Source of the DNA: Brevibacillus massiliensis
Lineage (GTDB): Bacteria > Bacillota > Bacilli > Brevibacillales > Brevibacillaceae
NCBI RefSeq assembly: GCF_000311785.1
Contig: NZ_HE978544.1
Coordinates: forward strand, 98,183 to 162,182
DNA length: 64,000 nt
Direction of reading: 5' to 3'
Made by a program: the position numbers and the translations under genes. This document shows, piece after piece, positions 46,535 to 61,685 of this stretch (its first letter is position 1; every line of letters begins with the position of its first letter). Under the pieces are notes generated by a model that had not been told where the DNA came from, did no database searches, and was given only the letters and a program-made list of their open reading frames with translations.

Positions 46535-48205
46535 TTACTGCAGGAACACTTTTACCGTCGGATCGATATGAACATCCAGCAGGATCGGCTTCCGTTCGCC
46601 AAAGGCTTTTTGGAAAGCCGGCGCAATCTCATCCGGCGAAGTCACCTTGGCGGCTGCAATGCCAAGCCCTTCGGCTACACTTGCAAAATCAATCGGCGGA
46701 GTCAGGTCCATCCCTGGAAAATGGCTCCGTTTGGCTGATTCGCCATTGATGTTGAGAATGCCGCCCTTTAAAATCATGTAGCTCTGGTTGTTCAAGATCA
46801 CGAATACGACAGGCAGGTTGTATTTGGCGGCATTCCATAAAGCTTGAATGTAATACAGGGAGGAGCCGTCCCCGATGATGTTGACGACTCTCCGGTCGGG
46901 CAGACCGAGCTGGGCGCCGAGAGAAGCCGGCATGCCATACCCCAGTCCGCCTCCTTTTAGGGCAATCAGGCTGTCTGGCTGCTGCAAATCGAGATAGTTG
47001 TGAACGTATTTTCCCGACGTGACCGATTCGTCGACGACAAAGGCATTTTTCGGCAGGCAGCGATTCAGCTCATGGATGACTCTGGCCGGAGATAGCGGGA
47101 TGCTGTCGTACGTCTCTTCCAGTTCCTTTCGTTTTGCCGCATCTTTTTCCTGCCGCTTTGCCACGGCCTTGGCCTTGCGGGCGGCAAAATGCCTCCGCTC
47201 CTCCTCCGTTGCCTGCTGGCCGATCAGTTCGCACAGTTCCGCTAGGGCTGTCTTCGGATTGGCGATAATCGGGATATCGACAAACATATTTTTGCCAAGC
47301 TCCCACTCTCCGCTGTCAATCGCGATGACTTTCGCTTCCTTCTGCACCAAAGGCTGGTCGAAGTAGAGCAGCGGCGCTTGGCTGATCACGCCGGCAAAGA
47401 GGACGACATCAGCTTCTGCCAGCGCCTGCCGGATAAACGGCCCGTTAGGCAAAAAGCGCCCCTGAAATTGCGGATGGGTATAAGGGAAATTCAAGCGGGA
47501 AACCTGATGTTCCGCGTACACCATCGCCCCGGTCAATTCAGCCAATTCGACCAGGGCGGGGACGGCCCCGGTGCTGCCGATGCGGTCGCCCGCCACGATC
47601 ATCGGGTGGGCGGCTGACCGGATGGCTGCCGCCGCCGCCTGGATGGCCTTCAGGTCTCCGCGGACTTCTGTTGCGATCCTCGTCAAAGGGATCGGATCGG
47701 CCGCCGATTCCTGCCACATCACATCGGATGGAAAGGACAGAAACACGGGACCCATCGGTTCGGTGAGGGCTACTTTAAAGGCCCGCTGCAGCACGACGGG
47801 CAGCTCCGCGGCATTCTTCACCTCCCAGCTCCATTTCGTATAACTCTTCACCATCTCCACCATTTCGCCCCACAGCGCAGGCTCCTGTACGCCGAATCGG
47901 GTGTCCTGCTGGCCGGCGGTCACGATCAGCGGCACCCCTGCCCGGTACGCATTGTACAGATTGCCAAAGCCGTGCCCGAGACCGGCCGCCACATGCAGAT
48001 TGACCACGCCGGGCTTGCCGGTAGCCATCGCATAGCCTGCAGCCATACCGACACAAATATCCTCATGTAAAGAAAGCACATATTGAATGTCGGGATAGTT
48101 GACAAGGCCGTCGACCAGCGGCAGCTCCGTCGTTCCCGGATTGCCAAACAAATACTCTACTCCGTATTTGCGGAACGTCTCCAGTACAAAGTCTCTCGCT
48201 AACAT
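46535..48205 (-). CDS. ThDP-dependent decarboxylase (benzoylformate decarboxylase-like)
   Basis: A 556-residue ThDP enzyme with three domains. N-terminal LFGNPGTTELPLVDGL and the activating Glu in YVLSLHEDICVGMAAGYAMATGKPG; a central NAD-like domain; C-terminal ThDP/Mg motif IIGDGSSLYYIQALWNAAKYNLPVVFVILNN. The best overall resemblance is benzoylformate decarboxylase/related 2-oxo acid decarboxylases. ATG at 48205 follows GGGGTGTGC. Divergent from a GntR-type regulator with a palindromic operator between; no partner dehydrogenase is adjacent. Confidence 0.88.
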   Translation of the reverse strand: MLARDFVLETFRKYGVEYLFGNPGTTELPLVDGLVNYPDIQYVLSLHEDICVGMAAGYAMATGKPGVVNLHVAAGLGHGFGNLYNAYRAGVPLIVTAGQQDTRFGVQEPALWGEMVEMVKSYTKWSWEVKNAAELPVVLQRAFKVALTEPMGPVFLSFPSDVMWQESAADPIPLTRIATEVRGDLKAIQAAAAAIRSAAHPMIVAGDRIGSTGAVPALVELAELTGAMVYAEHQVSRLNFPYTHPQFQGRFLPNGPFIRQALAEADVVLFAGVISQAPLLYFDQPLVQKEAKVIAIDSGEWELGKNMFVDIPIIANPKTALAELCELIGQQATEEERRHFAARKAKAVAKRQEKDAAKRKELEETYDSIPLSPARVIHELNRCLPKNAFVVDESVTSGKYVHNYLDLQQPDSLIALKGGGLGYGMPASLGAQLGLPDRRVVNIIGDGSSLYYIQALWNAAKYNLPVVFVILNNQSYMILKGGILNINGESAKRSHFPGMDLTPPIDFASVAEGLGIAAAKVTSPDEIAPAFQKAFGERKPILLDVHIDPTVKVFLQ

Positions 48206-48249
48206 AAGCACACCCCGTCCGTACCAAAAATTTTGAAAATTGTCATTTT

Positions 48250-48300
48250 ATTATACCACAAAAAATCATATAAGAAAAATGTTTAAATCATATATGATTT
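48250..48300. promoter_or_regulatory. Divergent promoter region with 16-base palindrome
   Basis: AAATCATATATGATTT (48285-48300) is a perfect palindrome; a related half-site AAAATCATATA lies at 48261-48271, and a TATAAT for the decarboxylase gene is at 48255-48250 on the minus strand. Placement between divergent genes fits GntR control of both. Confidence 0.6.
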
Positions 48301-48316
48301 TATATACAATCTCCTC

Positions 48317-48988
48317 ATGACAGAGAAAAAACAAAGTACCAGCAAACAGGCCCTTGCCTATCAGGTGATATACTCCCGTATTGTCGAGGGTAAATATCCT
48401 CCGGGGCAAAGACTTGTAGTAGACCAAATAGCCAGGGAGCTTTCCATGAGTCCCATCCCTGTCCGCGAAGCGATCCGGCAGCTGGAGTCAGACGGATTGG
48501 TCACGACAAAACACAACAGCGGCGCGATCGTAGCTTTGATCAACGAACAGGAATACTTCGAGACGATGGAACTGCTCAGTCTGTTGGAGGGGTATGCCAT
48601 AGCCTTGAGCTCGCTGTCCTTTCCCGCGGACAAGATTGACGATCTGCGAAACATCAATCAACAGATGAAAGGAGCTTTGGAGGATTTTGATTTTGTCCGT
48701 TTTGGAGAACTGAACAAGGATTTTCACTTCTTCACCTACGAATTTTGCCCCAATAAATTATTGACGGATCACATCCGGAACCTTTGGTCCAGATTGGATA
48801 CCATCAGACGGACAGGTTCGATGTTCATCCCGAGCAGGGCAAAAGAATCGATCCAAGAGCACGAAGTGATCATTTCTTTACTGGAAGAAAAGCGGCCGTT
48901 CTCGGAAATCGAGCAATATGCTCGCACGCACAAGTTAAATACGCTGCAAGCGAGAAAAAAGCTGAAGGAGTCGCGGACAAAAACATAG
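48317..48988 (+). CDS. GntR-family regulator (FCD domain)
   Basis: A 223-residue regulator: winged helix SKQALAYQVIYSRIVEGKYPPGQRLVVDQIARELSMSPIPVREAIRQLESDGLVTTKHNSGAIVA and C-terminal FCD helices (YFETMELLSLLEGYAIAL, FGELNKDFHFFTYEF, SRAKESIQEHEVIISLL) with effector-pocket His residues. Likely controls the divergent ThDP decarboxylase gene. Confidence 0.9.
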   Translation: MTEKKQSTSKQALAYQVIYSRIVEGKYPPGQRLVVDQIARELSMSPIPVREAIRQLESDGLVTTKHNSGAIVALINEQEYFETMELLSLLEGYAIALSSLSFPADKIDDLRNINQQMKGALEDFDFVRFGELNKDFHFFTYEFCPNKLLTDHIRNLWSRLDTIRRTGSMFIPSRAKESIQEHEVIISLLEEKRPFSEIEQYARTHKLNTLQARKKLKESRTKT

Positions 48989-52017: not shown

Positions 52018-53640
52018 TTAGCTTGTCTCGATTTTTTCACCGACCATCATTTTAATCATGCCTTCAACCAGCTCCGGCACTTCTTCAAAAGCGCTTTTGA
52101 CGTGAAGCCGTTCCGTCCGCTTGTGGGCATCCTTCCCAAATGGCCCGACATTCAGGACCGGCGCTTGAAGCTGTTTCATCGCTTCGAACGGGATGCTGTA
52201 GCTGTCTCCCCAGACCGGTGTGTTGGTCACGAAAGCGGTCCAGCCTTCCGTTTCGTCCTGATAATTGACATAGCTGAGGTCGCAGATGCCGTTGAAGAAG
52301 TGGATCTGATGAACAGGCAAAGCAAATTTTTTCAGCCCCTGCTCCTTCAGGTATTTGATACACCTGACGACGAGTTCATCGTCGGAGGAATGAACCGCCG
52401 GATAATAAGGCGGCGCGAACAGCAAGACCATCGCCGGCGCCAGCTCCTGGCACTGAATCATCAGGGTATCTGCAATGCGAAGCGATTTTTCGCGGTCGTC
52501 CCATTCTCCGTTTGCCAGAATGTTTGCTTTGATCGCTTCGACGGAAACTGTCCCTAATTTTTTGACAGCATGTGCAAGCAGATCTTCGTAACGCAAGACA
52601 CGCACTTCTCCTACAGGTTCAATACGCTGCTCTTGGCAAATTGCCCTGTATGCTTCATTGCAAGCTTGGGCCGCTTCTTTCGCTACCATTTCGAATATAT
52701 CCATGACTTCCGCAGCGGTTCGCTTCAGCACGAACACATTGTAGAGGCTTGCGGCGCGATACGGTGTTTGAACCGAGTACTCCATTTTTAAATCTTTTTG
52801 CTGCAGGGTGACCGGAAGCGGTGTCGTCTCGCCCATTACCGTTTCCCGGAAACGTTTGTTCCACTCCATGCGCTGGGTCAAAAACGAGGCGATGTAATTG
52901 GCGGTGATCCCGCTGAGCGGTTCGCCGACATGCGTCTCTTTCCCGTAAAACAGGGCAGACGGCATGATTTTGCCGATGGTCCCTGAATAGACGTAATAAT
53001 TGTGGTCTCCCGGTCCTTGCGGAAACACCGGCTCCCCGTTTAAGAAGAGCTGATAGTCAAGTTCGTGCTCTTCCTTCAACTCCAATAAGGTGGTGACGGC
53101 AGCTCGCATGCCGGCCGAATTGACTTCCTCATCCGGCACGGTCAGCAAGAGGAGATTAATCGGCCATCGTTCGACAGACGCCTTTTCAATCAGCCCCATG
53201 TGCATCACGAGTCCCATTTTCATATCCATCGTGCCCCGGCCGAACAAATACTGACCAGACGCCAGGTCATGCCGGGCCTCTTCCGGCAGATCATCGATCC
53301 TTCCGTATAGCAGCCGGGTCAATTCCTCCGGCTGGTAAGCAAAAGGTTCGAGATCTCCATACTCTTCTGTATTCACCGTATCAAAATGACTGATGAGCAC
53401 GATGGTTTTGGCGGTGTCGGAATGCTTGTATAAAGCCGTTAAAAAACGCCTGCCAAGATCGGCGTCGTGAAGCTTCAGGCAATCGGGATGTTGCTGAAAA
53501 TACGCCAATTCCTGAAGTTTTGCCTGCACTTTTAGCGGAAAGTCGCGCTCTCCCTCTGTCAGCGTCATGCTTTTCCAGCTTACCGCTTCACACAATAACC
53601 TGCGCCGCGCTTCTGGCGTTCCCCATCTGAGCTGTGTCAT
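52018..53640 (-). CDS. rocB: M20-family peptidase, RocB-like
   Basis: A 540-residue zinc-type M20 hydrolase like RocB of the Bacillus arginine-catabolism regulon. Metal-site motifs: LISHFDTVNTEEYGDLEPF, GRGTMDMKMGLVMHMGLI and LLTVPDEEVNSAGMRA with the general-base Glu-Glu, and late His in GPFGKDAHKRTERL. The reaction of RocB is not established; hydrolysis of an acylated or modified arginine derivative is plausible. Last gene of the operon, 20 bases after the permease. Confidence 0.88.
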   Translation of the reverse strand: MTQLRWGTPEARRRLLCEAVSWKSMTLTEGERDFPLKVQAKLQELAYFQQHPDCLKLHDADLGRRFLTALYKHSDTAKTIVLISHFDTVNTEEYGDLEPFAYQPEELTRLLYGRIDDLPEEARHDLASGQYLFGRGTMDMKMGLVMHMGLIEKASVERWPINLLLLTVPDEEVNSAGMRAAVTTLLELKEEHELDYQLFLNGEPVFPQGPGDHNYYVYSGTIGKIMPSALFYGKETHVGEPLSGITANYIASFLTQRMEWNKRFRETVMGETTPLPVTLQQKDLKMEYSVQTPYRAASLYNVFVLKRTAAEVMDIFEMVAKEAAQACNEAYRAICQEQRIEPVGEVRVLRYEDLLAHAVKKLGTVSVEAIKANILANGEWDDREKSLRIADTLMIQCQELAPAMVLLFAPPYYPAVHSSDDELVVRCIKYLKEQGLKKFALPVHQIHFFNGICDLSYVNYQDETEGWTAFVTNTPVWGDSYSIPFEAMKQLQAPVLNVGPFGKDAHKRTERLHVKSAFEEVPELVEGMIKMMVGEKIETS

Positions 53641-53660
53641 GACTCCATATCCCCTTCAAC

Positions 53661-55079
53661 TTATAATGGATCAGCGTCCATACTTGTGATGTCTTTCTGC
53701 TTTTTCGCATGTTTAAAGTGGTAATACAGGAAACACGCTAGTAAAAATCCGATGCCGATCAGCAAACTGACGATTTGCGTCGGATCAAATGCTAAAAATA
53801 TCAGGATGGATACGCAAAAGACGATACAAACAATGGGAATGAGCGGATAAAACGGCACTTTGTACTGCAGATCTTCTACTCTCCCCCCTGCCCGCACGTA
53901 TTTGCGCCGAAACATCAGCTGCGAAAAAGCGATGCCAATCCATGAAATCGTAACAGAAATCCCGGCAATTGACATCAACAAAACGAATACCGTGTCGGCT
54001 GCGATTACACTGGTCAGCAGCGATAGCAGGGAAAAACAGATCGTAAACGCCAGCGCGGAAAACGGAACCTTCCGCTTTGACAGTCTGCCAAACAGCTTTG
54101 GCGCCATTCCCTCGCCCGCCATCGCCCACAGCAGGCGGGTTGACGCGTAAATGCAGGAATTCCCCACGGATAAAATGGCGGTCAGGATCACGAAGTTCAT
54201 GATGTCCGGCGCAAACGGAATGCCCGCCAGATCCATGAGAGTCACAAATGGGCTCTCCAACAATCCCAGTTCAGCCGATGGGAAAATGGCAGCCAAAATG
54301 ACGATCGACGCGACGTAAAACACGATGATTCGAAACAGCACGTTCCGGATTGCACGGGGAATGTTCTTTTGCGGATTTTCGCTCTCTCCGGCAGCAATTC
54401 CGATCAGTTCCGACCCTTGGTAGGAGAAGATCACATTCATCATCGTGACGAAGAGGATGACAAACCCCGCCGGAAACAGGCCGGCCGGCGCCAGATTTGC
54501 CAGAAATGGAGCCGGGCGGTCGGCCAGGGGAATCATGCCGAAAATAGCGCCAAAACCGATGATGATAAAGAGCATGACGGCCAGCACTTTGATCCCGGCA
54601 AACCAGTACTCTGCCTCCGCGAAGCCCCTTGTGGTCAGGGCGTTGATCACAAACAGGATAACGATAAAAATCGCGCACCAAAGCCAAATCGAGATGCCCG
54701 GAAACCATCGCTGCATCAGTATGCCTGCGGCTGTAAATTCCACTCCGGCCGTTGTAGCCGACCCGACGAAATACATCCAGCCCAATGAAAAACCGGCGGA
54801 AGGACTGATGAATTTGCTGGCGTACGTCTGAAACGAGCCGGTAACGGGCATGTAGACAGCGAGTTCCCCCAAGCACACCATGACCAAATAGAGAATCAAT
54901 CCGCCGAACAAATAACTGAGCAAGGCTCCGCCCGCTCCCGCTTCGTGAATGGTATAGCCGGCGTTTAAAAACAATCCTGTACCAATTACTCCCCCGAGGG
55001 ACAACATAAACAAGTGGCGGCTCTTCATCGAGCGCTTCAACTGATTTTGCTGCAGGTCCTGATCGGTCATGGTTCTCAC
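53661..55079 (-). CDS. Basic amino acid permease (RocE/LysP-like)
   Basis: A 472-residue APC permease with 12 helices. Signature LKRSMKSRHLFMLSLGGVIGTGLFLNAGYTIHEAGAGGALLSYL, EAEYWFAGIKVLAVMLFI, and SYQGSELIGIAAGESENPQKNIPRAIRNVL. The group includes RocE, RocC and LysP, which carry arginine, ornithine or lysine. Position between deiminase-fold enzymes and RocB makes arginine or a methylated arginine the likely cargo. Confidence 0.9.
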   Translation of the reverse strand: MRTMTDQDLQQNQLKRSMKSRHLFMLSLGGVIGTGLFLNAGYTIHEAGAGGALLSYLFGGLILYLVMVCLGELAVYMPVTGSFQTYASKFISPSAGFSLGWMYFVGSATTAGVEFTAAGILMQRWFPGISIWLWCAIFIVILFVINALTTRGFAEAEYWFAGIKVLAVMLFIIIGFGAIFGMIPLADRPAPFLANLAPAGLFPAGFVILFVTMMNVIFSYQGSELIGIAAGESENPQKNIPRAIRNVLFRIIVFYVASIVILAAIFPSAELGLLESPFVTLMDLAGIPFAPDIMNFVILTAILSVGNSCIYASTRLLWAMAGEGMAPKLFGRLSKRKVPFSALAFTICFSLLSLLTSVIAADTVFVLLMSIAGISVTISWIGIAFSQLMFRRKYVRAGGRVEDLQYKVPFYPLIPIVCIVFCVSILIFLAFDPTQIVSLLIGIGFLLACFLYYHFKHAKKQKDITSMDADPL

Positions 55080-55112
55080 ACCTCTCTTAGGATGGCCGGG
55101 ACAAGTTCCAAC

Positions 55113-55880
55113 TTAAAACCGCAGCGACAAGCAGCTCAAGCCGCCGTCCAATTTGCGGAATTCAGACATCTCCAGTTCAATCGTCTGATAACCCGCTTCG
55201 TTTATCTTTTGTTTCGTTTGGGGATAGCCAGCCGGAATGATGACGTAATCATTCACACGGATGCAATTCGCCGCGTACTCTTCTTCAGGCGGAACAATGA
55301 TTTTCGTATATTCGCGAAAATCCGGATGCTCAACGAATTCGCCCGCCACGACAATGACTTGGTTGCCCAAATAAGAGATGCCCGTTTTTAAGTGAAAGAA
55401 TTTTTCCAACGGAACAATCGTCGCCTGGTAGTTTTCAGACTGCAAAATCTCTTTTAATTGCTCGGCCCCCTCCAGGTTCGTTCGATCGGACAAGCCAATA
55501 TAGAAATGGCGGTCTATTTGCAGCACGTCTCCGCCGTCAAGGGTGCCGGGAGATGTAATATGGTACATTTTTTCGTAATGGGTTTTGAGCACTGGCTCCA
55601 TTTCCCTGATTTCTCCATTACGGGAAGGAGCGCCGGGATTCGAGATGACAGCGAATTCGGGAGTGAGCACCGCCGTATCCTCTACAAACGTGGAGTCCGG
55701 GAACTCCGGGCTTGGCGGAAGGACGATCACTTCCACCCCGCAGGTTTTCAGGGCTTCCCTGTAAGCTTGATGCTGCTGCAGCGCTTTTTCATATATGGGC
55801 GTTCCGAGATTTGCCGTGGTCAGCCCATGGATATAGCTTTCTCCGGGTGTTTTGACAATCGTCTTTGTAAACATAAACAT
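55113..55880 (-). CDS. Dimethylarginine dimethylaminohydrolase-like enzyme
   Basis: A 255-residue amidinotransferase-fold hydrolase. DDAH-type motifs: PEFPDSTFVEDTAVLTPEFAVISNPGAPSRNGE, GTLDGGDVLQIDRHFYIGLSDRTN, catalytic His in FFHLKTGISYLGNQ and catalytic Cys in LDGGLSCLSLRF near the C-terminus. DDAH converts asymmetric dimethylarginine to citrulline and dimethylamine. ATG at 55880 follows GAGGAGGGATT. The fold also covers arginine deiminases, but the motif order fits DDAH best. Confidence 0.85.
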   Translation of the reverse strand: MFMFTKTIVKTPGESYIHGLTTANLGTPIYEKALQQHQAYREALKTCGVEVIVLPPSPEFPDSTFVEDTAVLTPEFAVISNPGAPSRNGEIREMEPVLKTHYEKMYHITSPGTLDGGDVLQIDRHFYIGLSDRTNLEGAEQLKEILQSENYQATIVPLEKFFHLKTGISYLGNQVIVVAGEFVEHPDFREYTKIIVPPEEEYAANCIRVNDYVIIPAGYPQTKQKINEAGYQTIELEMSEFRKLDGGLSCLSLRF

Positions 55881-55906
55881 GCGAATCCCTCCTCGTGATA
55901 TTCGGC

Positions 55907-56779
55907 TTATGTGCGGATAACCGGACAGGTCAGACAAGTCGGTCCGCCTGTTCCCAAGTAAGATATTTCACGCCCTTTGTATTCGTACACCGTCGCCCCC
56001 GCCTCGATTAATCGCTGCTTGGTGTAAGGGTTTTCAGAAAGCATCACGCAAACCCGGGGCGCCAGCGCGAGAACATTGCAGCCGAGATTCTGGTATTCGG
56101 CTTCAGGCACTTCGATCAGTTGAATTCCCCGCTCGATCAGGTACTGCCTGAAAAAGACCGGCATCAACCTCGAATAGACGACGGCCAGGTCGGAATCGAC
56201 GAGACTGATGAACGACATGAGATGGAGGCATTCGGCTTCCCCCTGATCATGCGGAAGCGGGACAACGATACATTCATCCACCACATCCTTGGTCATTTCC
56301 TTGATTTGCCGAATCGCTTCATCATTCGTTCGATAGCCGCGGCCGACAGCAAGCGTCCGATCGTCCAGCCAGACCAGGTCTCCCCCGTCCGCGACAGCAC
56401 TGCCGGTCAGCTCTCCTACGATGGGAATGTTTTTCTCCTGCAAAAACCGTTTAAAGGCAGCAGCTTCGGGCTGACGCAGCGTTTTCCCCGATCGTAAAAG
56501 TATCGCCCCCTTCGGAGTAAACTTGACAGGGTCATGGGCATAGATGGAATCCAGTCCGACACCTTCTGAAGCGGGCAAAAATTCAATGCGCTCCACATGC
56601 TTCCTTAAGATGTCGAGAAACTGCTCGTATTCATTCAACGCTTCGACAAAATCGGGTTCTTCGATAAAGTTGAATGTTTTCCACTCTTTGCTGAGATGCT
56701 CTTGACTGACAAAAGCTTCCTTGGGATGTTTTACGATGACGGTGTGAAGCTTTTTGTACATCGACTGACAGTAATTCAA
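55907..56779 (-). CDS. Arginine deiminase/DDAH-fold enzyme, second paralogue
   Basis: A 290-residue member of the amidinotransferase superfamily: YAHDPVKFTPKGAILLRSGKTLRQPE, VADGGDLVWLDDRTLAVGRGYRTNDEAI, catalytic His in GEAECLHLMSFISLVD and catalytic Cys in GGPTCLTCPVIR near the end. It is only distantly similar to the gene downstream, so the two probably act on different guanidino compounds or in sequence. First gene of the operon, read from the divergent promoter region shared with the IclR gene. Confidence 0.82.
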   Translation of the reverse strand: MNYCQSMYKKLHTVIVKHPKEAFVSQEHLSKEWKTFNFIEEPDFVEALNEYEQFLDILRKHVERIEFLPASEGVGLDSIYAHDPVKFTPKGAILLRSGKTLRQPEAAAFKRFLQEKNIPIVGELTGSAVADGGDLVWLDDRTLAVGRGYRTNDEAIRQIKEMTKDVVDECIVVPLPHDQGEAECLHLMSFISLVDSDLAVVYSRLMPVFFRQYLIERGIQLIEVPEAEYQNLGCNVLALAPRVCVMLSENPYTKQRLIEAGATVYEYKGREISYLGTGGPTCLTCPVIRT

Positions 56780-56892
56780 GTCTGCGCCCCCTTATTTTTC
56801 ACATATCGGAACGGGATTCCTTTGACAGGAATTTTCTACGTTGATCTTATAGCAGTTGCCTTCCAGTGTCAATATATTCTTAATTCACAGAA

Positions 56893-56958: not shown

Positions 56959-57702
56959 ATGCAAACGATTGATCGGGCCATGCAGGTAACAGCAATCCTT
57001 GCCGGAAACGAGACAAAAAAGTGGTTTTCCATTACGGAGCTATCCAAAGAGTGCGATTTGCCCGCAAGCACGCTGCATCGTCTGCTGCAATCGATGAAGA
57101 AACACGGGCTGATCCAGCAAGATCCGGATACCAAACTCTATTCATTGGGGAATACCTGGCTTGAATACGGTTTGCAGATGTACGATACGATCGATTTTGT
57201 CAGTCTGGTTCGTCCGGAAATGGAGAAGTTGATGCTTGAGGTTGAAGAAAGCGTCTACTTCAGCAAACCGATCGGATTGGAATCGTTAATCGTCGAACGA
57301 ATCGACTGCCCGACAAATTCGATTCGCGTGTACGACCAATTGGGAATCCGGATCCCGATGACCATCGGGGCCGCAAATAAAGTCATGCTGGCACATATGC
57401 CGCATGATGATGCCTTGAAAATCGTGAACTCGCTGCTGAAAAAAGAGGAGACGGAGAACTTTATCCAGATGCTGCGCGATGTGAAAAAGGCGGGGTACGG
57501 AATCAGCCACGGGGAGAAGACAAAAGGCACCTCGTCAGTGGCCGCACCTGTCTTTAATCAGCTGAATGAACTGTTGGGAGCCATCAGCATCGGCTATGTC
57601 AAGTTCAATGTGACAGAGGAAAGAGAGAACTTTCTAATCGAAAAAGTGCTCGCATACGGGGCGCGTATCTCCGCTAAACTGGGGTACAAGCCAAAAGAGT
57701 AG
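56959..57702 (+). CDS. IclR-family regulator of the arginine-type operon
   Basis: A 247-residue regulator: winged helix IDRAMQVTAILAGNETKKWFSITELSKECDLPASTLHRLLQSMKKHGLIQQDPDTKLYSLG and effector domain (EVEESVYFSKPIGLESLIVERIDCP, IPMTIGAANKVMLAHMPHDDALKIV, GYGISHGEKTKGTSSVAAPVFNQLNELLGAISIGY). Divergent from the four-gene catabolic operon it likely controls. The effector may be the imported guanidino compound (inference). Confidence 0.92.
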   Translation: MQTIDRAMQVTAILAGNETKKWFSITELSKECDLPASTLHRLLQSMKKHGLIQQDPDTKLYSLGNTWLEYGLQMYDTIDFVSLVRPEMEKLMLEVEESVYFSKPIGLESLIVERIDCPTNSIRVYDQLGIRIPMTIGAANKVMLAHMPHDDALKIVNSLLKKEETENFIQMLRDVKKAGYGISHGEKTKGTSSVAAPVFNQLNELLGAISIGYVKFNVTEERENFLIEKVLAYGARISAKLGYKPKE

Positions 57703-58247: not shown

Positions 58248-59336
58248 TTAGTACAGGCTGTCAATCCACCCTGTCTCGTCAAGTTCCTCCACGATGCTGT
58301 TGTCGACGAGATCTGCTGGTTTCATCCGCTTCACTTCTTCACTTGTCGAGTTGTGTAAAAAGAACTGTACAGAAGCGTCAGACACGAGCGGTTTCTTGGG
58401 AAACGTCGGAAGATTGACTTCATATGTCTTTACAGCCATGTCCTCATCGTCAATTCCGGTCCATTTCATAATCGATTTGACAGCCAAGTCCCGGTCCTTC
58501 GCAATCAGTGCATTCGCCTCGATGAGCGCTGCTACAATGGCTTTGGCCACTTCCGGATGCTGCCCGTAATACTCGCGCGTCATCCCGATTCCTGCAAGCA
58601 GCACCTCGGTATTGGAGAAGTCGTAAACCTTTTGGTAACCCATTTCATCCATCTTAAACGAGGTAGGCGGTGCGACGACGTAGAATGCCCCCTCCCCCTT
58701 TAAAAAGGCGGCGGTTCGGTCGCCTTCGCCGCCCATGTAGAGCAGTTTGACGTCTCTGCCGACCGTTAAACCCTGCCCGGCGACAAATGACTGTGCCAGG
58801 TGGTCGTACAGCGAACCTTCCGCTGCCGTAATCATCGTTTTTCCCTGCAGGCTTGCCTTTACATCCGACGGATTTACGTCCTTTTGCGCGTAGACGTAAA
58901 CTGCCGGCCGGTCGGCTACCGCCGCGAGGATGACGGAATCGTGACCTGCAGCCTTCGATTTGCCTACTGCGTCCACGCCGACCAGTCCCGCCTGAATTCC
59001 ATTGCTGGTGATCGCCTCCTGCAGGCGGGGCGTTCCAGCGACGTAGATCACTTCGGCCTGAAGCCCGTACTTCTCCAGCAAGCCGGCATCCTTGGCAACC
59101 CACAGCGGCAGCATGGACGCACCTTGGGTCGGGTAGCCGATTTTAATCGATACGGCAGGGCTGACAGGCTTGGGGGCCTTCTCGTCTTCCTCCGCTTGGC
59201 CGCTATTCGCCGCGGCCGGAGTGCTCGGTGTTGGTTGATGGGAATGTCCGGTTTGTACAGGCTCAGGTGATCCGCAGCCCGTTAAAATCAACAACATTGC
59301 GATCAGGAAAAACACGCCTGGTCCAGCTCGTCTCAT
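58248..59336 (-). CDS. SsuA/TauA/NMT1-type ABC binding lipoprotein
   Basis: A 362-residue lipoprotein: signal MRRAGPGVFFLIAMLLIL, lipobox TGC, a Pro/Ala-rich linker with HSHQ, then the NMT1/THI5-like fold (IKIGYPTQGASMLPLWVAKDAGLLEKYGLQAEVIYVAGTPRLQEAITSNGIQAGLVGVDAV, GQGLTVGRDVKLLYMGGEGDRTAAFLKGEGAFYVVAPPTS). The family binds sulfonates, nitrate, pyrimidine precursors or aromatic acids. The ATG at 59336 follows GGGGGA. Unusually it is encoded after the enzyme gene and not before the permease. Confidence 0.9.
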   Translation of the reverse strand: MRRAGPGVFFLIAMLLILTGCGSPEPVQTGHSHQPTPSTPAAANSGQAEEDEKAPKPVSPAVSIKIGYPTQGASMLPLWVAKDAGLLEKYGLQAEVIYVAGTPRLQEAITSNGIQAGLVGVDAVGKSKAAGHDSVILAAVADRPAVYVYAQKDVNPSDVKASLQGKTMITAAEGSLYDHLAQSFVAGQGLTVGRDVKLLYMGGEGDRTAAFLKGEGAFYVVAPPTSFKMDEMGYQKVYDFSNTEVLLAGIGMTREYYGQHPEVAKAIVAALIEANALIAKDRDLAVKSIMKWTGIDDEDMAVKTYEVNLPTFPKKPLVSDASVQFFLHNSTSEEVKRMKPADLVDNSIVEELDETGWIDSLY

Positions 59337-59372
59337 GCAGGTATCCCCCATTCTGGTTCCTTTTTCCGTATC

Positions 59373-60869
59373 TCAGCCGTGGTGGTGGCCGCAGCAGCTT
59401 CGGACGTTCCCCATCTCCCAGTGACTGTGTTTGCAGTACTTGGGGTCTGCCCCGACCATTTTCATGAACAGATGATGCCACTTTTGGCAGATGTTCAATT
59501 CAGTCAGGGTCCAATCGGTCGGGTCGTTGGCGTAATGCTGCCAATAGTCCCCTTCCACGTTAATCCCCGGAACTGCCGGAATCCACGATTCTGTCAGCAG
59601 CAGATCAGGGTCGCCGTACTTCGCGGCAATCTTGCGAATGTCCGGATCGTCCAGTGCCAAGAGCCGCCCGTCTTCGATCAGCTTTTCTGTGCCGCCGCCG
59701 ATCATCTCGCAAGTCACCGTGGCAAAATACAAGTGGATATGCCAATGGCCCACCGGGAGCCCCATTTTTGCTGCTTGCCGCTCCAGACTGCTGGAGATCA
59801 CCGTTCCAAAACCTATGTGGATACAACCGCTGCGCATCCGTTCGTACAGACAGCTCAGCCATCCCTTCAGAAAGTCCTTCCGCGGCCGGTGAATGTGCGG
59901 ATTTGTCCCGATGGAGGCCTCCCACCAGTAGAGCAGCCCTTTCCCCGGGAACCCCGGATATTCTAAGTGGTTGGTTTCGTCCATCAATTTTCGGAGTTTG
60001 TCTCCGAACAAGCCGCCTTCGTGAATCTCCGTGATCTTGCTGTTTTCCACCTTCAGTTGAATCCACGGCACCGGGCCGATGTGATTCATCGTCCCGGCAA
60101 TCACGCCGTGTCCGTCTTCTTTGGGAATGTACATCCACGGACGGCCGAGCACATGCCCGGGCAGATACGTTCTGCCGAAGTTTTTATTGTGCGTCCAGAA
60201 TTTCTCGACGAGCTCTTCGTTGAAGAACTCACGGTTTCGATCGTAGTAGTCGTCGTGGTTGGTATACGTCAGATCGGTGCCCTCGGGGTCGACGATGCGA
60301 ATGCGGCGGGCATGGCGAATCCGCTTCCAGGTCCACTTGTCGATGGCGTCAATCACTTCGTACGGTATCGTATGGGCTGGCGAGGCCAACAGCTCCGGCG
60401 TAATGAACGGCATCCGCTGTATTTTGATCTTGGCGTCGCACAAAACGGGACCGCCGTATCCCCAGAGGAGTTTGTCGTACTTGCCTTCCTGTTCGATTCG
60501 CTCCCATTCATCCATCCACTCCGCCAGTTCTTTGGTACGTGCCAGGTAGTACTCTACCTCGTTATGCCCCTCCCAGGAAGGAATCGGGCCTTTATCCGCC
60601 ATCAAAATCTCGTACTTGGTGTTGTACTTCTCCAGAATTCGCTTGCACGCTTCGATGACCATCGGATCATGCCAGTTATCGACACGAAGCAGTACGCGCT
60701 CGCCGGGCTGCAGATCCCAGGCCGCGTGCAACCCCTGGCTGTAGGGCCGCTTGGCCACTTCTTCAAGATACGGCATTAACTGCTCCACACTGTTCACCGT
60801 TACGTATGGGGGGCAGCGCGGCGGATACTTTTCGATTAAAGGCGGTTCGGTAAAATTTGGTTTATTCAT
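59373..60869 (-). CDS. Putative metalloenzyme distantly related to M29 peptidases/NicX
   Basis: A 498-residue cytoplasmic protein without signal peptide. The N-terminal part LQPGERVLLRVDNWHDPMVIEACKRILEKYNTKYEILMA resembles the first domain of M29 aminopeptidases and NicX-type 2,5-dihydroxypyridine dioxygenases; the C-terminal half holds the matching ligand blocks: EASIGTNPHIHRPR (318-330), GCIHIGFGTV (348-357) and GHWHIHLYF (374-382), where M29 has H-x-D. It is about 130 residues longer than either family and ends in a His/Cys tail CCGHHHG. It may hydrolyse or oxidise the compound imported by the co-encoded ABC transporter. Product not identified; AGGAGG precedes ATG. Confidence 0.6.
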   Translation of the reverse strand: MNKPNFTEPPLIEKYPPRCPPYVTVNSVEQLMPYLEEVAKRPYSQGLHAAWDLQPGERVLLRVDNWHDPMVIEACKRILEKYNTKYEILMADKGPIPSWEGHNEVEYYLARTKELAEWMDEWERIEQEGKYDKLLWGYGGPVLCDAKIKIQRMPFITPELLASPAHTIPYEVIDAIDKWTWKRIRHARRIRIVDPEGTDLTYTNHDDYYDRNREFFNEELVEKFWTHNKNFGRTYLPGHVLGRPWMYIPKEDGHGVIAGTMNHIGPVPWIQLKVENSKITEIHEGGLFGDKLRKLMDETNHLEYPGFPGKGLLYWWEASIGTNPHIHRPRKDFLKGWLSCLYERMRSGCIHIGFGTVISSSLERQAAKMGLPVGHWHIHLYFATVTCEMIGGGTEKLIEDGRLLALDDPDIRKIAAKYGDPDLLLTESWIPAVPGINVEGDYWQHYANDPTDWTLTELNICQKWHHLFMKMVGADPKYCKHSHWEMGNVRSCCGHHHG

Positions 60870-60902
60870 TGTACTTCCTCCTCGTTCACGGTTTTACGTC
60901 TT

Positions 60903-61685
60903 TTATTCACTGCGCCATTTTGCCAGGCGGTTTTCTCCCCATTTGATTGCTCCGGTAATCATCAGCCCCATCAGGACGATGACGACGATTCCCACAAACA
61001 CGCGATCGATATTAAAATTGGCCGACGACTGAGCGACAAAATAACCGACGCCGCCGGTCGAGACGAACATCTCCGCAGCTACGACCCCGACTAAAGCCTG
61101 GCCCATCCCGATTCGCAGTCCGGATACGATATAAGGCAGGGCCCCTGGCAGCGCGACGGTGCGAAACGTCTGCAGCGGTGTCGCCCCGAACGCCCCGGCC
61201 ACTCGCAGCAGATTGCGGTCAAGGGAATGCACGCCGATGATGGTGTTCAAAATGATCGGGAAAAAGGAGGCGAGAAACACGATCAACACTTTGCTCGCGA
61301 AGCCAACTCCAACCCACAACGTGATCAGCGGAAGCAAGACGATCCGCGGCGTGCCGAGCATCGCCGTCAGGAAAGGATCAAATGCCGCTCCCAGCGGACG
61401 GTACCAGCCAAACACCAACCCGAGAACCACCGCACTCACAGCCGCCAATCCGAAGCCGACGGTAAAATGGCCAAGCGTAAACAACAGGTGCTCCGTCAGG
61501 ACTCCGTTCTGGAACAGCGTGATGCAGACCTGGACGATCTTAAGCGGAGAACTGAGAAAGATCGGGTTGATCAGGCCGATACGGTACAAAATCTCCCAGA
61601 TTGCCAAAAAGGAAACCACGGCAATCGATCCGATATTCCTTGCTGCCCACCCGGTATGGTCAAAAGAAAGCCGTGTGCGAGCCAT
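60903..61685 (-). CDS. ABC permease, SsuC/TauC type
   Basis: A 260-residue permease with six helices and the EAA loop VAGAFGATPLQTFRTVALPGALPYIVSGLRIGMGQALVGVVAAEMF. It belongs to the sulfonate/nitrate/pyrimidine-precursor family. The ATG overlaps the ATPase stop (TGATG). Confidence 0.93.
   Translation of the reverse strand: MARTRLSFDHTGWAARNIGSIAVVSFLAIWEILYRIGLINPIFLSSPLKIVQVCITLFQNGVLTEHLLFTLGHFTVGFGLAAVSAVVLGLVFGWYRPLGAAFDPFLTAMLGTPRIVLLPLITLWVGVGFASKVLIVFLASFFPIILNTIIGVHSLDRNLLRVAGAFGATPLQTFRTVALPGALPYIVSGLRIGMGQALVGVVAAEMFVSTGGVGYFVAQSSANFNIDRVFVGIVVIVLMGLMITGAIKWGENRLAKWRSE

Follow-up and report, generated by a model that had tools for sequence, protein, structure and literature searches.

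Introduction

Bacterial catabolism of methylarginines via ddaH, under the control of ddaR, is cited in print (PMC7035377, PMC8657755 and PMC8694187), and in the Pseudomonas aeruginosa record ddaR, ddaH and a basic amino acid/polyamine antiporter are annotated side by side; Photobacterium has a sigma-54 regulator beside a dimethylargininase gene and a transporter gene of the same kind as in P. aeruginosa. Here a locus is described from a 64,000-nucleotide stretch of the Brevibacillus massiliensis genome (assembly GCF_000311785.1, 5.06 Mb in 37 contigs; contig NZ_HE978544.1, positions 98,183 to 162,182), referred to below as the window, in which a dimethylargininase-like (DDAH-like) enzyme (B), a second enzyme of guanidine-hydrolase fold (A), an amino-acid permease and an M20 metallohydrolase of RocB type are encoded opposite an IclR-family regulator. 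The gene set is best read as serving the uptake and hydrolysis of arginine derivatives, and the interpretation favored here, to which a probability of roughly 45% is given, is that of an IclR-controlled catabolic operon for guanidine-modified arginine in which RocB would carry out the citrulline step.

In the P. aeruginosa ddaR-ddaH locus a DDAH gene adjoins a basic amino acid/polyamine transporter gene and a divergent dedicated regulator; the window has a DDAH-like gene, a permease that may carry basic amino acids and a divergent IclR gene. The regulator is of sigma-54 type in P. aeruginosa and an IclR protein here, the transporter is an annotated antiporter there and an APC-type AA_permease here, and the P. 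aeruginosa locus has neither a second hydrolase corresponding to A nor a RocB within 5 kb, whereas the window has both. In view of its ddaR-ddaH relatives the operon can therefore be regarded as a Gram-positive variant, distinguished by IclR, the second hydrolase and RocB. A preliminary description of this DNA had considered that an operon for methylated arginine would be unusual in bacteria, a view not supported by the ddaR/ddaH/transporter layout annotated in P. aeruginosa and its counterpart in Photobacterium, by the ddaR-ddaH methylarginine catabolism cited in print, or by the frequency of the cassette in Bacillales (below). It had also called the reaction of RocB unknown; this is correct to the extent that no proven reaction was found, but a review already proposes that RocB of Bacillus subtilis is a probable citrullinase. 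According to that review, B. subtilis rocABC resembles the window in that an M20 protein of RocB type and an amino-acid permease serve arginine catabolism together, and differs from it in comprising a pyrroline-5-carboxylate dehydrogenase, in being controlled by RocR and SigL, and in having no deiminase.

Two further systems invite comparison. Rv2323c of Mycobacterium tuberculosis, annotated as a dimethylargininase, is required for growth on plain arginine and is clustered with a permease gene (rocE) and rocD, just as B is accompanied by a permease; unlike in the window, neither RocB nor a second hydrolase is reported for that cluster (PMC4569260). CtlX, a distant relative of arginine deiminase (ADI) proposed as a citrullinase, is described as carrying Asn at both positions that bind the substrate (motifs FPNN and HTN), where the ADI motifs are FTRD and HLD (PMC9007349); A is likewise a distant ADI-superfamily enzyme, but without Asn at these positions. 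For the Bacillales form of the operon no paper was found in the open-licence literature, which is weak evidence of absence, and nothing beyond the papers cited was found there on RocB biochemistry or on bacterial methylarginine operons. The system is not exotic, but conserved and without description in the literature searched.

Results and Discussion

Organization of the locus

The features of the locus, in window coordinates, are the following.

52018 to 53640, minus strand: M20 metallohydrolase, RocB-type, 540 aa
53661 to 55079, minus strand: amino-acid permease, APC family; GTG start, with a Met codon at 55070
55113 to 55874, minus strand: enzyme B, 253 aa, DDAH-like (dimethylargininase-like)
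55907 to 56779, minus strand: enzyme A, 290 aa from a TTG start, of guanidine-hydrolase fold but close to neither ADI nor DDAH
56795 to 56833, minus strand: tandem inverted-repeat array, TTCC-N7-GGAA followed by TTCC-N7-GAAA
56844 to 56872, minus strand: operon promoter of sigma-A type, TTGACA, spacer of 17, TAAGAT
56959 to 57702, plus strand: divergent IclR-family regulator (PF01614 and PF09339)

The genes for A, B, the permease and the RocB-type protein form a tight operon, apparently co-transcribed, opposite the IclR gene; a single transcript is argued for by the short gaps (32 bp between A and B, about 33 bp between B and the permease, 20 bp between the permease and RocB) together with one conserved promoter, a TTGACA-N15-20-TANNNT element being present in 73 of 77 homologous IclR-A intergenic regions. 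Downstream of the promoter a double TTCC-N-GGAA inverted repeat is found in 57 of these 77 regions, compared with a mean of 0.0 in mononucleotide shuffles. Because of its position, past the -10 box and ahead of the start codon, the repeat array resembles a repressor site, and it is probably the repressor operator, at which IclR would be the binding and repressing protein.

The five genes of the preliminary description were all recovered where it had placed them, and its account of a DDAH-like enzyme and a distant paralogue encoded with a permease, an M20 hydrolase and a divergent IclR agrees with the gene calls and with the Pfam matches (ADI and DDAH_eukar for A and B; AA_permease, Peptidase_M20 and IclR for the other three genes); only the start of B was corrected, ATG 55874 being the most likely start rather than TTG 55937 since it matches the start of the homologues and of P. 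aeruginosa DDAH. The last gene of the operon matches PF01546 (Peptidase_M20); the name RocB is provisional and follows the preliminary description, no model of that name being present in the libraries used.

Conservation of the cassette

When named genomes of bacteria and archaea were scanned with an A alignment, 176 relatives were obtained; the loci of the best 80 were fetched and their genes called as longest non-overlapping open reading frames. A divergent IclR gene lies directly upstream of A in 78 of the 80 loci, and A is accompanied by B in 77, by the permease in 76 and by RocB in 72; in 51 loci the genes follow one another without a break as A-B-permease-RocB, the remaining loci being rearranged, interrupted, incomplete or at a contig end. 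Genera with the cassette (by record names) include Neobacillus, Cytobacillus, Lysinibacillus, Psychrobacillus, Peribacillus and Sporosarcina. In class-level genome samples 28 of 398 genomes have A and 31 of 396 have B, 27 genomes being common to both (Fisher ~2e-36, relatedness ignored); in one of the 28 A-positive genomes A is a distant relative (36%) without B. The cassette is common in Bacillales, and chance clustering of its genes is ruled out because the arrangement recurs in most of the 80 loci and A and B co-occur. One record, titled Arthrobacter beigongshangensis (L192), has the cassette and shares its downstream neighbors with the Sporosarcina loci L167 and L172; for this record mislabeling or contamination is likelier than transfer.

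Enzymes A and B and the permease

Enzyme B aligns end to end with the P. aeruginosa DDAH structures 3rhy and 1h70 (E ~1e-81; 6e-82 for 3rhy), is 49.6% identical to the annotated P. aeruginosa ddaH product, and keeps the DDAH active-site residues, namely the Asp in FVED, the acid in D/E-G-G-D, the His in HLK and the Cys in GGxSC; these motifs are retained in 77 to 78 of 79 B homologues. Its scores fall below the NCBIfam dimethylargininase cut-offs (323 of 450, 189 of 340 and 55 of 300 bits, the last for the mycobacterial DDAH model), and it is therefore termed DDAH-like and not a member of these equivalogs. Within this limit the assignment of B is well grounded in its sequence, and asymmetric dimethylarginine (ADMA) or monomethylarginine would be the substrate.

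For enzyme A an AlphaFold2 model (mean predicted local distance difference test score, pLDDT, 84.6) is nearest in fold to arginine deiminase (2aaf, Z 31.5, root-mean-square deviation (rmsd) 2.4, 281 residues aligned), with P. aeruginosa DDAH in second place (Z 28), while Foldseek ranks DDAH 1h70 first. By alignment A retains the nucleophile (Cys282), the base (His186), the first guanidine-binding Asp (Asp83) and the DGGD acid, and the active-site motifs are kept in 80 of 80 homologues. Arg102 and Arg150 match the arginines by which the aligned enzymes hold the substrate carboxylate. Because all these residues are kept, the substrate should be an alpha-amino acid whose side chain bears a guanidine group, and A is taken to hydrolyze an alpha-amino acid resembling arginine, perhaps N-substituted.

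A shares with ArcA, its best fold match, the nucleophile and the His; it differs in its length of 290 aa and in having Met188 in place of the second guanidine-binding Asp, a replacement that is invariant in the alignment (22 of 22), whereas DDAH carries Lys at this position. In terms of the ADI motif pair, the first motif (FTRD) is kept as a YAHD-type motif, and the second has changed from HLD to HLM in all 80 homologues. Two identities were accordingly rejected for A: that of a classical arginine deiminase, given the missing second Asp, the short chain and a score of 66.5 bits against the arcA model TIGR01078 (cut-off 489.1), and that of CtlX, given YAHD and HLM instead of FPNN and HTN. A forms a separate, well-conserved clade, an unnamed branch of the guanidine-modifying superfamily. 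That A and not RocB is the citrulline hydrolase, in the manner of CtlX, is very improbable; CtlX and A are both distant ADI relatives and one guanidine-binding Asp is replaced in A, but Asn is reported at both positions of CtlX (PMC9007349), where all 80 of 80 A sequences carry Asp in the YAHD-type motif and Met in HLM. At locus L081 (genome G120) a distant relative of A (36%, HLD kept) is followed immediately by a distant RocB (27%); a polar amino-acid ABC transporter precedes the pair, and dehydrogenases and a class III aminotransferase come after it.

The permease matches PF00324 (AA_permease, E 5e-125); its best NCBIfam match, S-methylmethionine permease, is below the cut-off of that model. 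Permeases of the APC family usually transport free amino acids.

Proposed pathway

In the pathway that we infer, from the assignments above, for the substrates of A and B, the cargo of the permease and the reaction of RocB, the permease would import methylated arginines (ADMA or monomethylarginine) or arginine itself; B would hydrolyze the guanidine group via a Cys-bound intermediate to give citrulline and (di)methylamine; A would perform the same chemistry on a sister substrate, be it arginine, monomethylarginine or symmetric dimethylarginine (SDMA); RocB would hydrolyze the ureido group of citrulline to yield ornithine, CO2 and ammonia; and ornithine would then be processed by the ordinary ornithine enzymes of the host. 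In favor of this pathway count the conserved cassette with its shared promoter and repeat array, the neighborhood of ddaH in P. aeruginosa, and the gene content of the B. massiliensis genome, which encodes an arginase over cut-off and a relative of ornithine cyclodeaminase; a search of it found neither a full-length arginine deiminase nor a carbamate kinase over cut-off. Because 13 of 26 other A-positive genomes do have carbamate kinase over cut-off, any argument from its absence holds only locally.

It is rather improbable that the operon instead degrades some other guanidino amino acid (such as plain arginine, homoarginine or a glycated arginine), methylarginines being incidental. Such a role would agree with the divergence of A and B from every characterized enzyme, including the scores of B below the dimethylargininase cut-offs, with the lack of a full-length arginine deiminase in this genome, and with the reported requirement of Rv2323c for growth on plain arginine (PMC4569260); B, however, shares the FVED, HLK and GG-S-C motifs and ~50% identity with P. 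aeruginosa DDAH, and plain arginine already has a route, since the genome has an arginase. Also unlikely, though somewhat less so, is the most complete form of the methylarginine pathway, in which all three protein-derived methylarginines would be consumed, B acting on ADMA, A (through its Asp-to-Met pocket) being a new type of hydrolase for SDMA or monomethylarginine, and RocB being a ureido hydrolase for citrulline or N-methylcitrulline, an activity that enzymes of the DapE/ArgE type are not known to have; were it true, the role of RocB in the roc regulon would be settled. Methylarginines are released when methylated proteins of eukaryotes are degraded, and they inhibit animal nitric oxide synthase; their consumption by widespread bacilli would therefore be relevant to soil nitrogen and perhaps to hosts.

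The RocB-type protein

The citrullinase role of RocB is favored because A and B should make citrulline, because the cassette encodes no further enzyme besides RocB, and because RocB is enriched in A-positive genomes, where it occurs in full length in 27 of 28, compared with 153 of 370 others (Fisher 3e-9, without correction for relatedness). The protein has the residues of a metallohydrolase, with metal ligands H85, D139, E172, E203 and H506 and the catalytic E171; H85, D139, E171, E172 and H506 are kept in 59 of 59 RocB-type sequences, and position 203 is E or D in all 59. The cassette links RocB, known from the roc regulon, to enzymes with citrulline as their expected product, so that the function of RocB becomes decidable by one enzyme assay.

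Several findings nevertheless weigh against the favored interpretation, most of them concerning RocB. The predicted fold (pLDDT 85.1) is nearest to DapE (8f8o, Z 26.9, rmsd 3.0, 366 residues aligned), with LysK and acetylornithine and acetylcitrulline deacetylases close behind; that the 50 structure matches listed include no M20 carbamoylase speaks neither for nor against a carbamoylase. M20 N-carbamoyl amino-acid hydrolases have an HxEQG motif whose His is the fourth ligand; this motif is absent from all 59 RocB-type rows, for which reason RocB was rejected as a carbamoylase of that kind. Neither A nor B is found at any of 39 further RocB loci, sampled deliberately from A/B-negative genomes, and these include RocB copies 61–69% identical to that of the window. 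At L203, L207 and L242 a RocB-type gene directly follows genes for an agmatinase-like ureohydrolase and a polyamine-type ABC transporter (at L203 with an ornithine aminotransferase after it), and no citrulline is expected there. Three genomes (f18) have a B-A-permease locus without RocB, which is encoded elsewhere. The scores of B below the dimethylargininase cut-offs and the carbamate kinases of other A-positive genomes belong on the same side.

The link between RocB and the deiminases is therefore one-way: RocB goes with A, but commonly occurs without A or B. For 59 relatives 45 full-length RocB loci were listed; A or B is a neighbor in 14 of these, and a further locus contains a broken B. 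At two RocB loci overlooked by the gene calling (G009 contig 18 and G005) tblastn found no A or B. On a RocB tree of 59 rows (some picked for their deiminase neighbors; built by a quick method, with long branches flagged) the label "deiminase neighbor" requires 8 changes, which is suggestive of repeated gain or loss of the association.

In a second account of the same operon RocB would belong functionally with DapE and ArgE, as an N-alpha-deacylase or a dipeptidase that frees arginine or methylarginine from acylated or peptide forms before A and B act, citrulline leaving by ArgGH or another existing route. This is a tentative possibility to be taken seriously, for it fits the closest folds of RocB (DapE, LysK and the acetylornithine and acetylcitrulline deacetylases), its position beside ureohydrolase and ornithine aminotransferase genes, and its frequency without A or B. 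On the other hand, 10 of the 80 cassettes contain a separate M20 amidohydrolase (CpsA/DoeB2 type) and a YfcC-type transporter inside the operon, so that deacylation there seems provided for and a second deacylase would be redundant; the usual cargo of APC permeases, free amino acids, likewise speaks against acylated or peptide substrates. The citrullinase proposal of the review stands against a deacylase as well. In favor of the citrullinase role, a Priestia plasmid retains the permease, IclR and RocB without A or B, as if a free amino acid were the substrate of RocB; no second deiminase cassette was found in the plasmid RocB neighborhoods examined.

Further RocB neighborhoods were noted. The ureohydrolase loci L203, L207 and L242 constitute a second arginine-linked setting for RocB. 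At L237 (G018) B is fragmented between IclR and the permease and RocB is intact. At L314, L316 and L318 RocB relatives (61–69% identical to that of the window) adjoin a PatA-like aminotransferase and not A or B, and the IclR-B loci L193 and L194 are likewise flanked by an aminotransferase of PatA type. The B. massiliensis genome itself has two RocB paralogues (35% identical), each in another cluster. One lies with a presumed polar amino-acid ABC transporter and an IclR; the other (L005, contig 12) with what are presumably a TRAP transporter, a 2-hydroxyacid dehydrogenase, a class III aminotransferase and an aldehyde dehydrogenase. A gene set like that of L005 recurs in G011, and the L005 paralogue may act on a different amide or ureido substrate.

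Other features of the window

Beyond the IclR gene, a 498-aa protein with a Cys/His-rich C-terminus is encoded at 59373 to 60869 (minus strand), in line with genes for an NMT1/SsuA-like binding protein and an ABC permease (58248 to 61685); it had no Pfam or NCBIfam match and no PDB sequence match at E up to 1. At 46535 to 48988 a thiamine-diphosphate enzyme, whose best NCBIfam match is benzoylformate decarboxylase (below cut-off), is divergent from a GntR/FCD regulator.

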